Shown here: piece after piece, positions 54,505-62,216 of the stretch | Layout of the letters: each line of letters starts with the position of its first letter | Position numbering within the stretch: position 1 is the stretch's first letter | NCBI GenBank assembly: GCA_018645405.1 | Contig: JABGOQ010000166.1 | Location: forward strand, 1-64,000 | Length of the DNA: 64,000 nucleotides | Source: Anaerolineae bacterium | GTDB lineage: Bacteria; Chloroflexota; Anaerolineae; Anaerolineales; Villigracilaceae | Reading direction: 5' to 3' | Notes under the pieces: model-generated | The model's database searches: none | What the model was told of the DNA's origin: nothing | Seen by the model: only the letters and a program-made list of their open reading frames with translations | Program-made: the position numbers and the translations under genes

Positions 54505-54540
54505 AAACTAGAAAAGTCTCTAAGACTTTTCTAGTTTTTA
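54505..54540. terminator. bidirectional intrinsic terminator
   Basis: A 15-bp stem AAACTAGAAAAGTCT / AGACTTTTCTAGTTT (54505-54519/54523-54537) between the convergent DUF4230 and lipoate ligase genes. Confidence 0.9.
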
Positions 54541-55353
54541 AATACGCTCAGTCCAATCTGGATGAGCGTATTTTTGTTGGATTAATTCACTTGCTCGGCT
54601 TCGTTCAGATTCTGACAGATCTTTGGGCATCAGCCTGATCCCCAACACCGATTCAAACGCGCGTGAGAAAGACTTGCTTGCCGCATCCCAAGCAATTTCT
54701 CGTCCCAAAGCAGATTCCAGGGTGGAGGCGCGTGCCAATAATTTTTCGGTGGCAATTTGACGAGATGCATCATCTGGGAAAGATAATGCATCGGTAACGC
54801 GCGCCAAATTCCCCGTCAAAGGAAGGGAACCGTGTTGAAGCACGCCGCCTTTTTGCCGCGCTTGTGCGCTCCCGATCAACTTTTTCCCATTTACAGTGAT
54901 CTCATAAGCCGATGGTGTTTCAAAGCAGACAGGATTCGTGCGAGTGCTTTGTTCCGCTTTTTCTTTATTCATTGCAACATCAGCTCCCAGAGATTTGAGT
55001 GCGGCGAGTAAGCCTTGTGCAAGATGACGGTAGCTATCCAGGATAGAGCCGTTGACATGAAGATTATCATTTGGTGCAATAATTGAATATGTTAGTTCAT
55101 CTGTATGCAAAATAGCCCGCCCGCCCGTCATGCGACGGACAACATCCCAGCCATTTGTTTTGAGGGCGTTCTTGTTCACATCAGAGAAAGGTTGAGAACG
55201 TCCCAGAGAAAGACAGGGAGGTTCCCAGCTATATAAGCGCAGGGTTGGGATGGCATCATCGCGTGCAACATGCTCAAGGATAGATTCGTCCACAGCCATA
55301 TTCCATGCGCCGGAAGCTAGAGGAGAGATGTATAAACGCCAGGCTTCTTTCAT
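54538..55353 (-). CDS. lipoate-protein ligase / lipoyl(octanoyl) transferase family protein
   Basis: 271 residues of the biotin/lipoate A/B protein ligase fold. GAWNMAVDESIL, PCLSLGRSQPFSDVN, VVRRMTGGRAILHTDELTYSII and GKKLIGSAQARQKGGVLQHGSLPL hold the ligand-binding motifs and the conserved Lys. It could be LplA, LipM or LipL type; these cannot be separated here. It starts 4 bases after the DHDPS family gene. Confidence 0.85.
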   Translation of the reverse strand: MKEAWRLYISPLASGAWNMAVDESILEHVARDDAIPTLRLYSWEPPCLSLGRSQPFSDVNKNALKTNGWDVVRRMTGGRAILHTDELTYSIIAPNDNLHVNGSILDSYRHLAQGLLAALKSLGADVAMNKEKAEQSTRTNPVCFETPSAYEITVNGKKLIGSAQARQKGGVLQHGSLPLTGNLARVTDALSFPDDASRQIATEKLLARASTLESALGREIAWDAASKSFSRAFESVLGIRLMPKDLSESERSRASELIQQKYAHPDWTERI

Positions 55354-55357
55354 CTTA

Positions 55358-56272
55358 TTATTCTTTCAACAGAGGGGTGAGTTCAGCGACTGCCGCATCT
55401 ACAAGAGCAGAAGGTGTTGGGAGCAGAGGCGGGCGTAAATCCCATTTAGGGAAGTTGTGCAGGCGTGCGGCAAGGGCTTTTAGAATGGAGGGGAAAGGCA
55501 TATATTTCTCTAGTATCTCACGAATGATGGTGATTTTCTCTTGAATAACTGTGCCATCTTGATCGGCAATGAGTGTATCCCATAGCAGGCGTAGCTCGGG
55601 TGAGATCAAGTTTGCCGGCGCAGTGATGCAGCCTTGTGCGTGATTTTTCATTGCATGTGAGAGATATGAATCAGTTCCTGTCAGAACGAGCAGATCGTTT
55701 CCAAAACGTGCGCCGAGGGCTTCGGCGTGAGCAAGATCATGCGATGAATCTTTGATTCCTGCAAATTTGATAGGATGAGCATCTTTTAGATGCGCGAGCA
55801 AATCAAGTGAGAGCGGCACGCCAGAAACGCCAGGAATATGGTATCCAATTAAATATTTGCCATCTGGCACAGAGTGTCGAATGAGAAGGTCGTACCATTG
55901 GAAAAGCCCCTCTTCGCTGGCATTGCGAAAGTAGAAGGGAGGCAATACGACCACCCCCTCGAAATCTGCGGCGAAGGCGGCTTTGTTGAGTTCAATACTT
56001 TCTTGCAGGCTGGGAGTCCCCGTCCCGGCGAGGAGACGAAAATGGGGGTATTCTTGGCGAGTTGCACCAGCGGCTTTGAATAAGGCGATGCGCTCAGCTG
56101 GAGAGAAAGATGTTCCCTCTCCAGTTGTGCCAAGAAGTAGTGCTCCGTGACAATTTCTTTTTGCCAGAAAGCGTAAATAAATGGAAGCAAGCTCAAGGTC
56201 AGGGGCGTATTGGTCGCCCTTAATTGGGGTGATAGATGCGGCGTAAACGCCAGCTAGGGGGTGAAGTGTCAT
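55358..56272 (-). CDS. dihydrodipicolinate synthase family aldolase
   Basis: 304 residues, TIM barrel of the DapA/NAL family. LLGTTGEGTSFSPAER is the keto-acid binding loop, YLIGYHIPGVSGVPLS contains the catalytic Tyr, and FAGIKDSSHD the Schiff-base Lys. The substrate may not be aspartate semialdehyde: no other lysine gene is nearby and the tail differs from DapA. Related aldolases act on 2-keto-3-deoxy sugars or N-acetylneuraminate. Confidence 0.85.
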   Translation of the reverse strand: MTLHPLAGVYAASITPIKGDQYAPDLELASIYLRFLAKRNCHGALLLGTTGEGTSFSPAERIALFKAAGATRQEYPHFRLLAGTGTPSLQESIELNKAAFAADFEGVVVLPPFYFRNASEEGLFQWYDLLIRHSVPDGKYLIGYHIPGVSGVPLSLDLLAHLKDAHPIKFAGIKDSSHDLAHAEALGARFGNDLLVLTGTDSYLSHAMKNHAQGCITAPANLISPELRLLWDTLIADQDGTVIQEKITIIREILEKYMPFPSILKALAARLHNFPKWDLRPPLLPTPSALVDAAVAELTPLLKE

Positions 56273-56427: not shown

Positions 56428-58326
56428 CTGGATACTCGAAAAGTTACACGTTCTATCGCTGGTTCTGCAGACGAAAACGATGCTCGACCTGCACACCAGC
56501 AATTACAGCCGGGTGTTACGCTTTCTGAACGTTATCTGATTCAGGAAATTATTGGCATTGGTGGGATGGGGTCTGTTTATCGCGCCCGTGATTTGCATTT
56601 CCCAAATGTAGTTAAACTTGTTGCCGTTAAGGAAATGGTTAATCTTGCTCCTGATCCGCAATTACGGAAGACGGTTGTTGAAAATTTTGAGCGTGAAGCG
56701 AATATTTTGGCAACACTCACTCATCCTTCTATCCCTAGTATTTTTGATTATTTTTCTGGTGAAGATCGTTCTTATTTGGTATTGGAATATATTAATGGTA
56801 AGGATCTTGAAGCTGTAATTAGAGACACAGAGGGTTTTCTTTCTCCTGCGCAAGTGATTGCTTGGGGAATTGAGTTATGTGATGTTGTGAGCTTTTTGCA
56901 TAATCATAAGCCTGATAAGATTATCTTTAGAGATATGAAACCATCTAATGTGATGATTGATAATCGTGGGCATGTAATGTTGGTTGATTTTGGGATTGCG
57001 AAGCAATTTCAAACAGGACAAAAGGGAACCATGATTGGCACAGAGGGGTATTCTCCACCTGAGCAATATCGTGGTGAGGCAACTCATCTTGCTGATATTT
57101 ATGCATTAGGAGCTACTCTTCATCATTTGCTCACAAAAAGAGACCCGCGTTTAGAGCCGCCCTTTTCCTTTGATGAGCGTCCAATTACTGGTATCAACCA
57201 GGATATTTCATCTGAAGTTGAAGCAGTGGTTTCAAGAGCTCTTGAATACGAGCCTAAAGATCGTTTTCCAACTATTGATGATATGAAAGAGGCTTTGATG
57301 GCAGCCGCTCGCCAAACTGGGTTGCTCTCAAGAATGCCTTCTAGTGCTGCGCCGACCATCCAGACAGATGGGATCAAACCTCTCTGGAAATTTAAATGCG
57401 AAGATGAAATTCGTGGTACACCAGCTCTTTTTGACAATACGGTTTTTATTGGTTGTTACGATAATAACCTTTATGCGATTAATGCTGCCGATGGTGAATT
57501 TAAGTGGAAATACCCCACAGATGGGGGGGTTGTCTCTAGGCCCGCGATTGCAGATGGAAATGTTTTTTTTGGATCAGAAGATCAACGTTTGCATGTGATT
57601 AGCGCGCGCGCAGGCACAATCGCTTGGTCGCATTACGCTGAGGGCCCCGTTCGTTCTTCACCGCGTATTGCTGAAGGTCATGTTTTTATCGGCTCAGATG
57701 ATGGATGCCTTCATGCTGTCAACAGTACGACAGGTCGTTCAGTCTGGACCTTTTCCGCTGCCGCGCCTATTCGTTCAACGCCTTTTGTGGCGCATGATTT
57801 TATCTATGTTGGCTCTGAAAATGGAGAATTTTATTGCGTGGATTTCAAAGGGTCTGTCAAATGGCAATTTAGAGCCAAACGTGGTATCACATCTTCGCCA
57901 TTGGTTACAGAGCACGCTGTTTATTTCTCTTCACTGGACGGACATTTATACTCATTGGATCCAAAAAGCGGTTGGGTGCTCTGGAAATTCCGCCTAGGGA
58001 AAGGGTCTATCTCATCACCAGTTATCTTGGATGATCTAATCTTTACTGGCGCAGCAGATGGATATATCTATGCAATTGATTTGAAAACGTCCAAAGAAGC
58101 TTGGCGTTTTCGTACAGAGCATCAAGTTACTGGATCGCCCATTATCTACAGAGACGCATTATATTGTGCTTCTTTTGATAGTCACCTATATTGTTTGGAT
58201 GCCAAAACTGGTCAGTTGCGTTGGAAATTTGCAACCGAAGGACCAATTACAGGGTCTCCATTGGTCTATGATGATATTGTCTACATTGGATCTACAGATC
58301 ATCAAATTTATGCACTTCTAGCCTAA
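56428..58326 (+). CDS. Ser/Thr protein kinase with C-terminal PQQ-type beta-propeller
   Basis: About 632 residues. The kinase frame is open up to a TGA at 56419; the G-loop IIGIGGMGSVY (residues 41-51) would be cut by the first ATG (56566). The only start-like codon upstream is CTG 56428, with AGGA shortly before, so a CTG start is likely. Lys68 (VAVKEM), FRDMKPSN (HRD as FRD, Asp169) and DFG (187-189) indicate an active kinase. From about 345 on, eight repeats of the type IxSSPxxxxxxVYxGSxDxxLYAxD form a PQQ/BamB-like propeller. There is no membrane segment, so all of it seems cytosolic. It heads the phosphatase/VWA/FHA cluster. Confidence 0.9.
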   Translation: MDTRKVTRSIAGSADENDARPAHQQLQPGVTLSERYLIQEIIGIGGMGSVYRARDLHFPNVVKLVAVKEMVNLAPDPQLRKTVVENFEREANILATLTHPSIPSIFDYFSGEDRSYLVLEYINGKDLEAVIRDTEGFLSPAQVIAWGIELCDVVSFLHNHKPDKIIFRDMKPSNVMIDNRGHVMLVDFGIAKQFQTGQKGTMIGTEGYSPPEQYRGEATHLADIYALGATLHHLLTKRDPRLEPPFSFDERPITGINQDISSEVEAVVSRALEYEPKDRFPTIDDMKEALMAAARQTGLLSRMPSSAAPTIQTDGIKPLWKFKCEDEIRGTPALFDNTVFIGCYDNNLYAINAADGEFKWKYPTDGGVVSRPAIADGNVFFGSEDQRLHVISARAGTIAWSHYAEGPVRSSPRIAEGHVFIGSDDGCLHAVNSTTGRSVWTFSAAAPIRSTPFVAHDFIYVGSENGEFYCVDFKGSVKWQFRAKRGITSSPLVTEHAVYFSSLDGHLYSLDPKSGWVLWKFRLGKGSISSPVILDDLIFTGAADGYIYAIDLKTSKEAWRFRTEHQVTGSPIIYRDALYCASFDSHLYCLDAKTGQLRWKFATEGPITGSPLVYDDIVYIGSTDHQIYALLA

Positions 58327-58341: not shown

Positions 58342-59247
58342 GTGTTCGATTTTTTAAAAAAACTATTTTCAAAAGAACCTGAGGATACCCTCCTTGCGGA
58401 TGCACCTGAGACAATTCCTCTTTCACCAGAACAGGTGGAAGATATTGTGGCAAATCAGGCGATGCAATATGAATTACAGCATTTAGTGGCTGCAAGCGGG
58501 CAATCTGTTGGAAAACAGCGTGAGCTTAACGAAGATAGCCTCATGTCTATTTCGACTACCATAGCAGGAAATGCAGGGAATACCCCCTTTGGATTGTATA
58601 TCGTTGCTGACGGCATGGGAGGTCACCAATATGGGGAAATTGCCAGTAATACTGCAATACGGACGTTTGGTGGGCATATCATGCGGAAGTTCCACCCTTA
58701 CCTTTTTACCTTACCCACAGTACCTCTGGACGAATCGCTCCAGGATTTGATGCTTGAGGGCGTTTCCCAAGCGCAGGAGGCCATTCAACGTGATGCCCCC
58801 GGTAGCGGCACCACGCTTACAGCAGCACTTGTTTTAGGGGAACAGGTTTCCATTGCGCATGTTGGTGATAGTCGTGCCTATGCTGTATATCCAGACGGGC
58901 GTTTTGATTTGATTACCCGTGACCATTCCCTTGTCGGTCGCCTTGAAGAATTGGGGCAAATCACTGCAGAAGAAGCAGAAACTCATCCCCAAAAAAATGT
59001 TTTATACCGCGCTTTGGGGCAAGGTGAAATTCTTGAACCAGATATTTTTACTGTTTCCTTCCCGAAAAAAGGAACCTTGCTGATTTGTAGCGATGGTCTT
59101 TGGGGTGTTTTGAGCAAAGAAACAATGCATCAAGCTATAAGCGATGCGGATACGCTGGAGCGCGCTTGTCAAAACCTTGTCAATGCCGCGAATGCAGCGG
59201 GCGGCCCAGATAATATTACTGTTATCCTTGCGAAAATGATTGGATAG
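58342..59247 (+). CDS. PP2C family Ser/Thr phosphatase
   Basis: 301 residues from GTG 58342, after AGAGGAG. A 55-residue N-terminal extension precedes the PP2C domain: GKQRELNEDSLM, VADGMGGHQYGE, HVGDSRAYAV, TRDHSLVGRL, CSDGLWGVLS and GPDNITVIL. All metal-binding Asp residues are there. It should remove phosphate groups set by the kinase 15 bases upstream. Confidence 0.93.
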   Translation: MFDFLKKLFSKEPEDTLLADAPETIPLSPEQVEDIVANQAMQYELQHLVAASGQSVGKQRELNEDSLMSISTTIAGNAGNTPFGLYIVADGMGGHQYGEIASNTAIRTFGGHIMRKFHPYLFTLPTVPLDESLQDLMLEGVSQAQEAIQRDAPGSGTTLTAALVLGEQVSIAHVGDSRAYAVYPDGRFDLITRDHSLVGRLEELGQITAEEAETHPQKNVLYRALGQGEILEPDIFTVSFPKKGTLLICSDGLWGVLSKETMHQAISDADTLERACQNLVNAANAAGGPDNITVILAKMIG

Positions 59248-59258
59248 AAGAGGCAATT

Positions 59259-60722
59259 TTGCCAGATTATTACGCTCTTTTAGGCATCTTTAGGGATGCA
59301 ACGCAGGAGGAAATCAAGCGAGCCTATTTCGAGGCGGCGCAGCGTTTGCATCCCGATAAAAATGAAGCACCTGGCGAAACAGAAATTTTCCTGGATGTTC
59401 AACAAGCCTATGATGTTTTATCAAATACAGAAATACGTGCCGAATATGATGCTTCATTAGCCCCGGAAGAAGAAGAACAATCGCTGATTCTTCAGCGAGT
59501 TTTTCATAGCCGAGAGAGTCTTGTTCGTATAAATGAAACACAATTGATTTATGCTCTAGTTGAGTGGAAGCCTCGTCAAAACGAGCGAGAAGTGGTTTCA
59601 CCTCCATTAAATATTTGTCTGGTTCTAGATAATTCTACATCCATGAAAGGGCAAAATGTTGAAATGGTCAAGGCGGCGGCCATTCACTTAATTCGTAGTT
59701 TAAGACAGCAAGATATTCTCAGTGTGGTTACCTTTAATGATAAAGCAGAGGTTCGAATTCCTGCTTCGTTAAATCTTGATCGCCGAAGAATGGAAACAAA
59801 AGTAAGAATGCTCCTTCCTTCTGGTGGAACAGAGATTTTTCAAGGGTTGCAGGCTGGTGTTGTTGAAGTTCGTAAAAATCTTTCAGATGAACGAGTTAAC
59901 CACATAATCTTATTAACTGATGGTCAAACTTATGGGGATGAAGAAGAATGCTTAGTATTGGCTGAAGAAGCTGAAGATATTGGTATTGGGATTAGTGGAT
60001 TAGGGATTGGCAAAGATTGGAACGATGATTTTCTTGATGAGTTAGCTGCTAAAACTGGAAGCAGTAGCCGTTATATTGCAGAGCCACAAGAAATACAGGA
60101 GTTTTTAGAAGAAAAATTTGAACAATTGGCAAAGGTGTTCGCAGAAAATGTAGAGCTGGAATTTCAAACACCCTCCGCTGTTGATCTAAGCTATATTTTT
60201 CGTTTACAACCGAACGCAGCGCATCTATCTTCGGAGAAAGAATTACAGCTTGGCGTGATTCTACGAGATCAATCTCTTAGCCTCATACTTGAATTTTCGA
60301 TAAACCCAGCTGCTGTTTTAGAAGATAAAGTAGACTTACTTACGGGTTCCCTTAAATTCGAGATCCCTTCTCAATCATTGGCAGCACAGCCTATGCGTGT
60401 GCGCATTTCTCGAAACGTGACGGAGCAGGCAAGCCTTGAGCCGCCATCGCCAACGCTTGTACACGCTCTTGCCAACCTCAATCTCTATCGGATGCAAGAA
60501 ACAGCACAAGAAGATGTTGCCTCTGGTAAATATAATGAAGCCTCACGTCGCTTGCAGCATTTGGCAACTCACCTCCTTTCAAATGGCGAGCGAAGTATGG
60601 CAAAAACGGTTTTACTTGAAGCAGAAAACCTACAGCAGCAGCAAAGCTTCTCTGAAGAAGGTCGTAAAAATATAAAATATGGTACACGGGCATTGCTTCT
60701 GCCAGCAGGAAAAGGAAAATAA
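59259..60722 (+). CDS. J-domain - VWA fusion protein
   Basis: 487 residues from TTG 59259 (AGAGG before it). Residues 1-66 are a J-domain with YYALLGIFRDATQEEIKRAY and the HPD motif (31-33), which would stimulate an Hsp70 ATPase. Residues about 115-290 are a von Willebrand A domain with a full MIDAS: D124-x-S126-x-S128 (DNSTS), Thr191 and Asp221. The C-terminal 190 residues are beta-rich, then helical. The fusion suggests that a chaperone is called to a metal-dependent binding platform. It follows the PP2C gene by 11 bases. Confidence 0.92.
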   Translation: MPDYYALLGIFRDATQEEIKRAYFEAAQRLHPDKNEAPGETEIFLDVQQAYDVLSNTEIRAEYDASLAPEEEEQSLILQRVFHSRESLVRINETQLIYALVEWKPRQNEREVVSPPLNICLVLDNSTSMKGQNVEMVKAAAIHLIRSLRQQDILSVVTFNDKAEVRIPASLNLDRRRMETKVRMLLPSGGTEIFQGLQAGVVEVRKNLSDERVNHIILLTDGQTYGDEEECLVLAEEAEDIGIGISGLGIGKDWNDDFLDELAAKTGSSSRYIAEPQEIQEFLEEKFEQLAKVFAENVELEFQTPSAVDLSYIFRLQPNAAHLSSEKELQLGVILRDQSLSLILEFSINPAAVLEDKVDLLTGSLKFEIPSQSLAAQPMRVRISRNVTEQASLEPPSPTLVHALANLNLYRMQETAQEDVASGKYNEASRRLQHLATHLLSNGERSMAKTVLLEAENLQQQQSFSEEGRKNIKYGTRALLLPAGKGK

Positions 60723-60725
60723 CTC

Positions 60726-61229
60726 ATGATTATGTGTCCAGCTTGTCAGCATCAGGAAGTTGAAGGGGCCTTATTTTGCAGTGATTGTGGTGCGCAATTG
60801 CAGAATGTAGCCTCTCTAGTAACGCAAAATATTCAGACTAACGACATAAGCCGCGAAGCATTAGACGCAATTCCTCAAGAGCAGAAGAAAGTATTAGCCT
60901 CTGGCTCTCTAACTCTTCAGCTTTTAGAGGGAGGGCAGATTCTGCCTTTAGCAGATCGAAATGAGTTTACGATGGGGCGGGCAAGTGAAGGGCAAACAGT
61001 TATGCCAGATATTGATTTCACGCCTTATCGTGCGTATGAATATGGCGTTTCACGTATACATGCTGTGTTGAAGAAAACCAAAGACAAAGTAATTGTTATG
61101 GATTTGGGGTCTTCAAATGGGACGTATGTTAATGGTGTTCGCCTGGCACCAGAGAATGAATACCCTCTTTCTCATGGCAATATTATCTCTTTGGGAAAAC
61201 TTAAAATTCAATTTCTTTTGCAAAATTAA
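60726..61229 (+). CDS. zinc-ribbon FHA domain protein
   Basis: 167 residues. Two CxxC pairs at the N-terminus (CPACQH, CSDCGAQL) form a zinc ribbon. After a linker, an FHA domain (about 75-167) has GRASEG, SRIHAVL and SSNGTYVNG, the three phosphothreonine-binding elements. It should read phospho-Thr set by the cluster's kinase. Start ATG 60726 (60732 is also possible), 3 bases after the J-VWA stop. Confidence 0.93.
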   Translation: MIMCPACQHQEVEGALFCSDCGAQLQNVASLVTQNIQTNDISREALDAIPQEQKKVLASGSLTLQLLEGGQILPLADRNEFTMGRASEGQTVMPDIDFTPYRAYEYGVSRIHAVLKKTKDKVIVMDLGSSNGTYVNGVRLAPENEYPLSHGNIISLGKLKIQFLLQN

Positions 61230-61248: not shown

Positions 61249-61491
61249 ATGGCTTACGGTATTATTTTACATGTTTCAGGGGAAGTTCCTATTTTTGGTG
61301 AAATTGAAGAATTGCCAGGCCCTGCTGATACAATCGTTACTGTGAGTAATCCTCGTTCTCGAGAAGGGAAGGATTTACACTATCTTGACGCAGAAGTTGC
61401 CCAGGTTATCTGGCCTATTGAAAAACTCAATTTTATCGAAATTATGCCCAGCGAAGATGACGAACAAATTATCAGCTTTGTGAGAGAGTAA
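61249..61491 (+). CDS. 80-residue hypothetical protein in the kinase cluster
   Basis: An 80-residue acidic protein starting [20 protein letters not shown] and with [19 protein letters not shown] near the end. It is rich in predicted beta strands and has no Cys or membrane segment. Family not recognised. AAAGGAAGG precedes ATG 61249, and it lies 19 bases after the FHA gene and 2 before the response regulator, so it is part of the operon. Confidence 0.8.
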
Positions 61492-61493
61492 GG

Positions 61494-62216
61494 ATGAAAA
61501 ATGAGTTTGAGCGACGTAAAATATTAATTGTTGATGATGAAGAACGAATGGTGCGATTTATTCGTCTTAATCTTGAACACGATGGTTTTTTGGTCAACGA
61601 AGCCTTTAATGGCAAAGAAGCCCTTCAGCAATTGCGTGAGGAGTCTCCAGATTTAATCCTTCTTGATGTGATGATGCCTGGCTTGGATGGATTTGAAGTT
61701 TTGCAGATGATTCGCGAAGCAAGTAAGGTGCCCGTTTTGATGCTTACAGCTAAAGGGGAAGAAGATGATCGTGTTCGTGGACTTGAGTTGGGAGCAGACG
61801 ATTACATCACCAAGCCCTTTAGCCCGCGCGAGATGGTTAGTCGCGTAAAAGCAGTTTTGCGTCGCACTGAAACTTCGGGTGGTTCAACACACGGTCTAAT
61901 TGAAGTGGATGACCGTTTGAAGATTGACTTTGATCGACGTGAGATTTGGCTTGAAGGACAAATCGTCAAATTACGCCCGACAGAATACCGTTTACTATAT
62001 CATCTTGTCCAAAACGCAGGGTGGGTGGTTACTCACGATCAGTTATTGATTAAAGTTTGGGGATATGAATATAGGGATGAACCGCATTATGTTCGCCTTT
62101 ATATAAATTATTTGCGTAAAAAGCTTGAAGAAAATCCTTCTTCCCCTAAATATATTTTAACGGAGCGAGGCGTAGGGTATCGTTTTGTCGATTTTCGGAG
62201 AGAAAACCTTTCTTAG
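61494..62216 (+). CDS. OmpR/PhoB family response regulator
   Basis: 240 residues. The receiver (8-120) has DDEER, the acceptor in [16 protein letters not shown] and the Lys in [11 protein letters not shown]. The winged helix (about 138-235) has [26 protein letters not shown] and [14 protein letters not shown]. No histidine kinase gene is next to it. It ends the kinase/phosphatase cluster and may control it. Confidence 0.94.

Follow-up and report, generated by a model that had tools for sequence, protein, structure and literature searches.

Modules built from FHA proteins, protein kinases and PP2C phosphatases are widespread in bacteria, and to our knowledge it is mostly unclear how their phospho-dependent complexes are reset. 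The closest described counterparts of the proteins analyzed here are ArnA and ArnB, which act in the repression of motility in Sulfolobus acidocaldarius. ArnB is composed of a beta-sandwich, a vWA domain and a bundle of four helices, the last being the target of the kinase ArnC, while ArnA binds phosphorylated ArnB through its FHA domain and unphosphorylated ArnB through its zinc finger (PMC12852372, PMC6509490). The ArnAB architecture resembles the Sec23/24 core, consisting of a vWA domain, a beta-sandwich, a helical domain and a zinc finger (PMC12852372). A second described arrangement, TerY-P, combines a VWA protein, a PP2C phosphatase and a kinase with a zinc ribbon (PMC11090510). In class C J-domain proteins, the J-domain is combined with unrelated protein-interaction domains, which typically serve to target Hsp70 (PMC8215388).

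We analyzed a 64,000-nucleotide stretch of the genome of an Anaerolineae bacterium (hereafter the window), in which a single gene encodes a J-domain and a VWA domain in an ArnB-like layout. The HPD motif, the MIDAS, and the kinase, PP2C, FHA and zinc residues of this protein and its neighbors are intact, and the operon is conserved. The coordinates are summarized in Table 1.

Table 1. Genes of the operon and domains of the J-VWA protein, in window positions.
Feature	Position	Strand	Details
Ser/Thr kinase with PQQ/BamB-type beta-propeller	56428..58326	+	First operon gene; Pfam: Pkinase (E 5.5e-37) and propeller families
PP2C phosphatase, Stp1/IreP-like	58342..59247	+	Pfam PP2C E 3.2e-14; NCBIfam NF033484 E 1.6e-64 (217.6 bits, cut-off 230)
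J-VWA protein	59259..60722	+	487 aa; TTG start to TAA 60722; 11 nt past PP2C stop
J-domain, residues 3-64	59265..59450	+	Pfam DnaJ; HPD = residues 31-33 (59349-59357)
Split beta-sandwich, first strands, residues 77-116	59487..59606	+	Model strands 77-83, 87-89, 95-105
VWA domain, residues 117-292	59607..60134	+	Pfam VWA
VWA MIDAS	59628-59642; 59829-59831; 59919-59921	+	DNSTS 124-128; T191; D221
Split beta-sandwich, other strands, residues 293-392	60135..60434	+	Model: six longer strands within 293-388
C-terminal four-helix bundle, residues 393-480	60435..60698	+	Helices 398-421, 425-441, 445-461, 466-478
Zinc-ribbon/FHA protein (ArnA-like)	60726..61229	+	3 nt after J-VWA stop; Pfam FHA E 3.5e-17
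80-aa conserved protein	61249..61491	+	Without Pfam or NCBIfam family; in operon through Chloroflexia
OmpR-type response regulator	61494..62216	+	Last gene of tight cluster; 2 nt gap; Pfam

A J-domain on an ArnB-like scaffold

The J-VWA protein is encoded by one uninterrupted open reading frame, preceded by an SD-like GAAGAGG 5 nt upstream of the TTG at 59259; the two domains are thus not separate genes. The Pfam DnaJ model matched residues 3-64 over its full length (E 9.7e-20) and the VWA model matched residues 118-273 (E 2.6e-20), both far above the curated cut-offs. DnaJ and VWA-type models were the only Pfam families found, and the protein lacks the G/F region, zinc finger and C-terminal domains of DnaJ. 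An AlphaFold2 model, calculated with 37 homologues as input (mean pLDDT 88.1, pTM 0.81), contained both folds: four J-domain helices (4-8, 16-30, 40-55 and 57-66) and a VWA alpha/beta Rossmann fold, with beta-sandwich strands on both sides of the VWA domain and four helices thereafter. The MIDAS is complete (D124/S126/S128, T191 and D221). An initial annotation had described this fusion with intact HPD and MIDAS, and Pfam, AlphaFold2 and conservation all agree with it; the residue numbers it gave for HPD (31-33), DxSxS (124-128), Thr191 and Asp221 are exact. It did not mention the split beta-sandwich, the four-helix tail, the zinc-ribbon/FHA partner or the resemblance to ArnA/ArnB. A terminator-like hairpin at the J/VWA junction (59481-59498) was also considered and rejected, as 7 relatives do not conserve it and shuffled sequences contain, on average, about as many such sites.

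Foldseek comparison of the model with the PDB returned a VWA protein of Catenulispora (4fx5; E 2.6e-24, TMt 0.74) as the first match and ArnB (8s05_A; E 4.5e-23, TMt 0.70) as the next, followed by the ArnB paralogue 5a8j and, further down, Sec23/24. By sequence, the best PDB match of the VWA part was ArnB 8s05_A (E 5e-10). The Pfam model ArnB_C (PF18677), in contrast, gave no significant match in the window protein and was found in only 2/37 homologues (best E 0.014). ArnB membership is therefore assigned by fold and partner, not by the Pfam model. Based on its fold in the predicted structure, the C-terminal bundle is ArnB-like and would correspond to the regulatory helices of ArnB; its residues T437, S465 and T476 are conserved.

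The adjacent gene encodes a protein with an N-terminal CxxC-x10-CxxC ribbon and a C-terminal FHA domain. Its best PDB match was ArnA (5a8i/8s05_C), over both the ribbon and the FHA domain, and the C-x2-C-x10-C-x2-C spacing is identical in the two proteins. The zinc-binding cysteines and the FHA residues that bind phosphothreonine are kept in about 124/125 homologues. Since J-VWA resembles ArnB and the next gene product resembles ArnA, the locus encodes an ArnA/ArnB-like module whose ArnB half bears an extra J-domain. As far as the anatomy shows, the pair may work like ArnAB.

Operon and conservation

The gaps between the genes in the window range from 2 to 19 nt, suggesting that they form one transcript. 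The order and strand of the genes for the kinase-propeller, PP2C, J-VWA, zinc-ribbon/FHA, 80-aa and OmpR-type proteins are the same in almost every locus of the order, including the regulator at the end, and the first five genes persist in most sampled members of the class and in Chloroflexia. The kinase motifs VAxK, RDxKPxN and DFG are invariant in homologues, and the PP2C motifs DGMGGH, GDSR, SDGLW and DN are conserved. The model of the 80-aa protein was a small five-stranded barrel (pLDDT 87.6), whose best Foldseek matches were all Sm/LSm proteins, at weak scores (best E 0.007). Upstream, divergent lipoate-protein ligase-like and DapA-like genes (54538-56272) adjoin the operon, as they do in several relatives of the family. 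No MoxR-type AAA+ gene was found by Pfam among the operon reading frames and the scanned neighbors, and a MoxR-VWA chaperone pair was rejected on this ground.

The probable start codon of the kinase gene is CTG at 56428. The first ATG (56566) falls inside the Gly-rich loop, and no ATG, GTG or TTG precedes this loop; an SD-like GAGGA lies upstream of the CTG, with an in-frame stop two codons before it. The codon at the aligned start was CTG in 49 of 71 homologous loci (e.g., L124, L126, L130, L133, L138 and L141), ATG in 15 and TTG in 5, and this prevalence suggests a conserved CTG initiation codon.

Homologues of J-VWA were found in 100/100 relatives searched, at full or near full length in most. 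They share the same start point in 8/8 other genomes of the genus, which by record title takes in Candidatus Desulfolinea nitratireducens, and in most of the 100 relatives; the fusion is therefore neither a chance frame nor an assembly artefact. Class-wide, 210/396 genomes contained a match at E < 1e-40, and the best 80 loci listed in a search of genome contigs were, judging by their record titles, all from Chloroflexota, class Anaerolineae. In the order-wide alignment (85 sequences, 81 with the J-domain), HPD is kept in 79/81 J-bearing homologues, and the MIDAS residues never vary (85-86 of 85-86 homologues). Among the genomes of the genus, no segment of the protein is better conserved than the J-domain (mean amino acid identity 85% vs 72% for the VWA domain); dN/dS was about 0.07, with dS near saturation. 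A 679-aa frame that joins J-VWA to the FHA protein in one genome (L012 in G006) proved to be an artefact of an N run in the contig.

The plasmid and phage records contained separate J or VWA matches only, and no J-VWA fusion. The suggestion of the initial annotation that J-domains are rare at the N-terminus of VWA proteins fails in the protein's own lineage, where the fusion is the rule. Our literature search found no paper on a J-domain joined to a VWA domain, though an earlier survey of bacterial J-proteins might list the fusion.

Possible DnaK coupling and history of the J-domain

Besides J-VWA, the host genome encodes just two J-proteins, alongside two full-length DnaKs. Together with the invariance of HPD and the strong constraint, this supports coupling of J-VWA to Hsp70, as judged from sequence. 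The net charge of J-domain helix II, however, is 0 in the window's copy, compared with a mean of +1.4 in the family and +2.3 in DnaJ/CbpA of relatives, and the basic pair at positions 24/25 is replaced by F/E. This uncharged helix suggests that the coupling to DnaK may be weak or specialized. The initial annotation proposed a kinase-controlled, metal-dependent complex to which Hsp70 is recruited. This appears plausible: a kinase gene does lie in the operon and the HPD invariance supports the Hsp70 coupling, which is qualified by the uncharged helix II and by the recurrent disappearance of HPD or of the entire J-domain described below. The ArnA/ArnB resemblance and the FHA partner now give that complex a concrete identity. 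Linkage of dnaK to the operon was considered and rejected. It adjoins the operon in 1/238 loci only (L224; 8345-10231, on the operon's strand and immediately behind the regulator gene), and this arrangement is absent from the other genomes of that family.

In a tree of the protein body without the J-domain, the operon-type proteins formed a clade of their own (SH-aLRT 99) that excluded J-less paralogues. This clade comprised 71 rows bearing a J-domain with HPD, 6 with a J-domain lacking HPD, and 15 without a J-domain. The J-less members in the same operon occur in Chloroflexia (L251, L254, L256, L258 and L262) and in several lineages of Anaerolineae (L083-L085, L244-L246, L248-L250 and L253). 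The J fold and much of the typical J-domain sequence are kept and HPD lost in several separate lineages (L087, L088, L228, L232, L233 and L240), and the starred branches of the tree force at least 4 changes to the HPD-less state. When compared with DnaJ and CbpA-like proteins, the fused J-domains grouped as one clade (88/97, not starred) and probably have a single origin. The simplest reading of the tree would be that the J-domain was acquired once, in the ancestor of the operon-type clade, and later lost repeatedly; a separate acquisition in the deep rows L242, L243 and L267 is less probable. In Chloroflexia genomes (L251-L259; G503, G591, G605 and G743), there are three or four VWA paralogues without a J-domain, one of them in a full operon and the others beside extra PP2C, kinase and FHA genes.

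Because HPD or the J-domain was lost repeatedly while the operon stayed, coupling to DnaK is not essential to the core function. Together with the less basic helix II, the dispensability of the J-domain in several lineages favors viewing it as a specialized add-on to a putative switch that can function in its absence. The HPD-less and J-less relatives provide natural controls for the role of Hsp70.

A candidate phosphorylation switch and its known relatives

We consider the chances evenly balanced that J-VWA and its operon partners constitute a phosphorylation switch in which DnaK is recruited in cis to remodel the VWA-FHA complex. From the anatomy we infer the phosphorylated residues, the VWA-FHA contact, the stimulation of DnaK and the existence of a client. 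The kinase-propeller would phosphorylate threonines of the C-terminal helical bundle and PP2C would remove these phosphates, so that the two enzymes toggle VWA-FHA binding. The zinc-ribbon/FHA protein would bind loosely through its ribbon, and tightly through its FHA domain once the bundle is phosphorylated, while the MIDAS could bind a client or partner at one of its acidic residues. Recruitment of DnaK in cis by the J-domain would serve to open, reset or disassemble the complex, or to hand over the cargo of the VWA domain. Part of this best explanation is that J-VWA is, on the predicted structure, a class C co-chaperone on an ArnB-like scaffold. We put forward the complete reading tentatively: a bacterial ArnA/ArnB-type, Sec23/24-core-like phospho-switch with a built-in Hsp70 co-chaperone, opened or reset by DnaK, ancestral to Anaerolineae and partly lost later.

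The same anatomy could be read in other ways. The J-less ArnA/ArnB-like switch may be the working unit, with the J-domain as an accessory interaction module that tunes folding, solubility or self-inhibition and has little or no Hsp70 role left. Orthologues that lack the J-domain in the same operon, the J folds without HPD and the lost charge of helix II in the window's copy are what such a module would leave behind; we nevertheless regard it as doubtful, given the near-complete retention of HPD in the order and in the tree (71 rows against 6) and the position of the J-domain as the most constrained segment within the genus. If the VWA/MIDAS instead captured a dedicated client for delivery to DnaK, regulated by the kinase and phosphatase of the operon, the likeness to ArnA/ArnB would be structural only. 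The invariant MIDAS and the usual mode of action of class C J-proteins fit such delivery, but it leaves unexplained both the constant zinc-ribbon/FHA partner with its invariant phosphothreonine-binding residues and the persistence of the operon without J, and we judge it unlikely.

A TerY-P-like or defence-type module of kinase, PP2C and VWA, active in metal sensing or against phages, could also have gained a J-domain. The three core activities are the same, and the kinase domain matches the PD-T4-6 and mad6 models. However, none of the PADLOC models fits the VWA, the fusion partner of the kinase is a propeller rather than a zinc ribbon (or OB fold), and the operon is a stable, single-copy feature of the whole class within which no mobile or nuclease genes were recognized, unlike defence cassettes. 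This origin is very improbable; assignment to a defence system was rejected, as neither VWA nor FHA matches a PADLOC model and the kinase matches reflect similarity of kinase domains.

The preferred reading, a phosphorylation switch remodeled by DnaK, places an Hsp70 handle directly on the switch protein, throughout the class and under strong constraint. ArnA/ArnB, a pair known for regulating motility in archaea, is by the same reading extended to a bacterial operon that is conserved and includes a kinase and a phosphatase, thereby making the ArnB mechanism testable outside Sulfolobus.

Compared with ArnA-ArnB of S. acidocaldarius (8s05, 5a8i and 5a8j), the window module has the same vWA domain set in a beta-sandwich, the same four-helix bundle, an intact MIDAS, a partner with ribbon and FHA, and the involvement of a kinase and a phosphatase. 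It differs in its N-terminal J-domain, in a phosphatase that is PP2C rather than PP2A, in a propeller-bearing kinase, and in having both enzymes in the operon; it is bacterial and without an archaellum target, and it includes the extra 80-aa protein and response regulator. The Catenulispora acidiphila protein 4fx5 and YfbK-type VWA proteins share a bacterial ArnB-like layout (noted in PMC12852372), with 4fx5 as the best fold match; it has no J-domain, and the comparison is one of fold. The eukaryotic Sec23/Sec24 core is alike in vWA domain, beta-sandwich, helical domain and zinc finger, as a distant fold similarity only; the window protein lacks the gelsolin domain, and no coat function is implied. 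The TerY-P triad likewise has adjacent kinase, PP2C and VWA genes and a zinc ribbon, whereas the window's ribbon is on the FHA protein, its VWA has the ArnB/YfbK layout, and a J-domain is present. Class C proteins such as DjlA and AtcJ also fuse a J-domain carrying HPD to domains unrelated to DnaJ. In J-VWA, whose helix II is less basic than that of DnaJ/CbpA, the fused partner is an ArnB-like VWA scaffold in a kinase/phosphatase/FHA operon.
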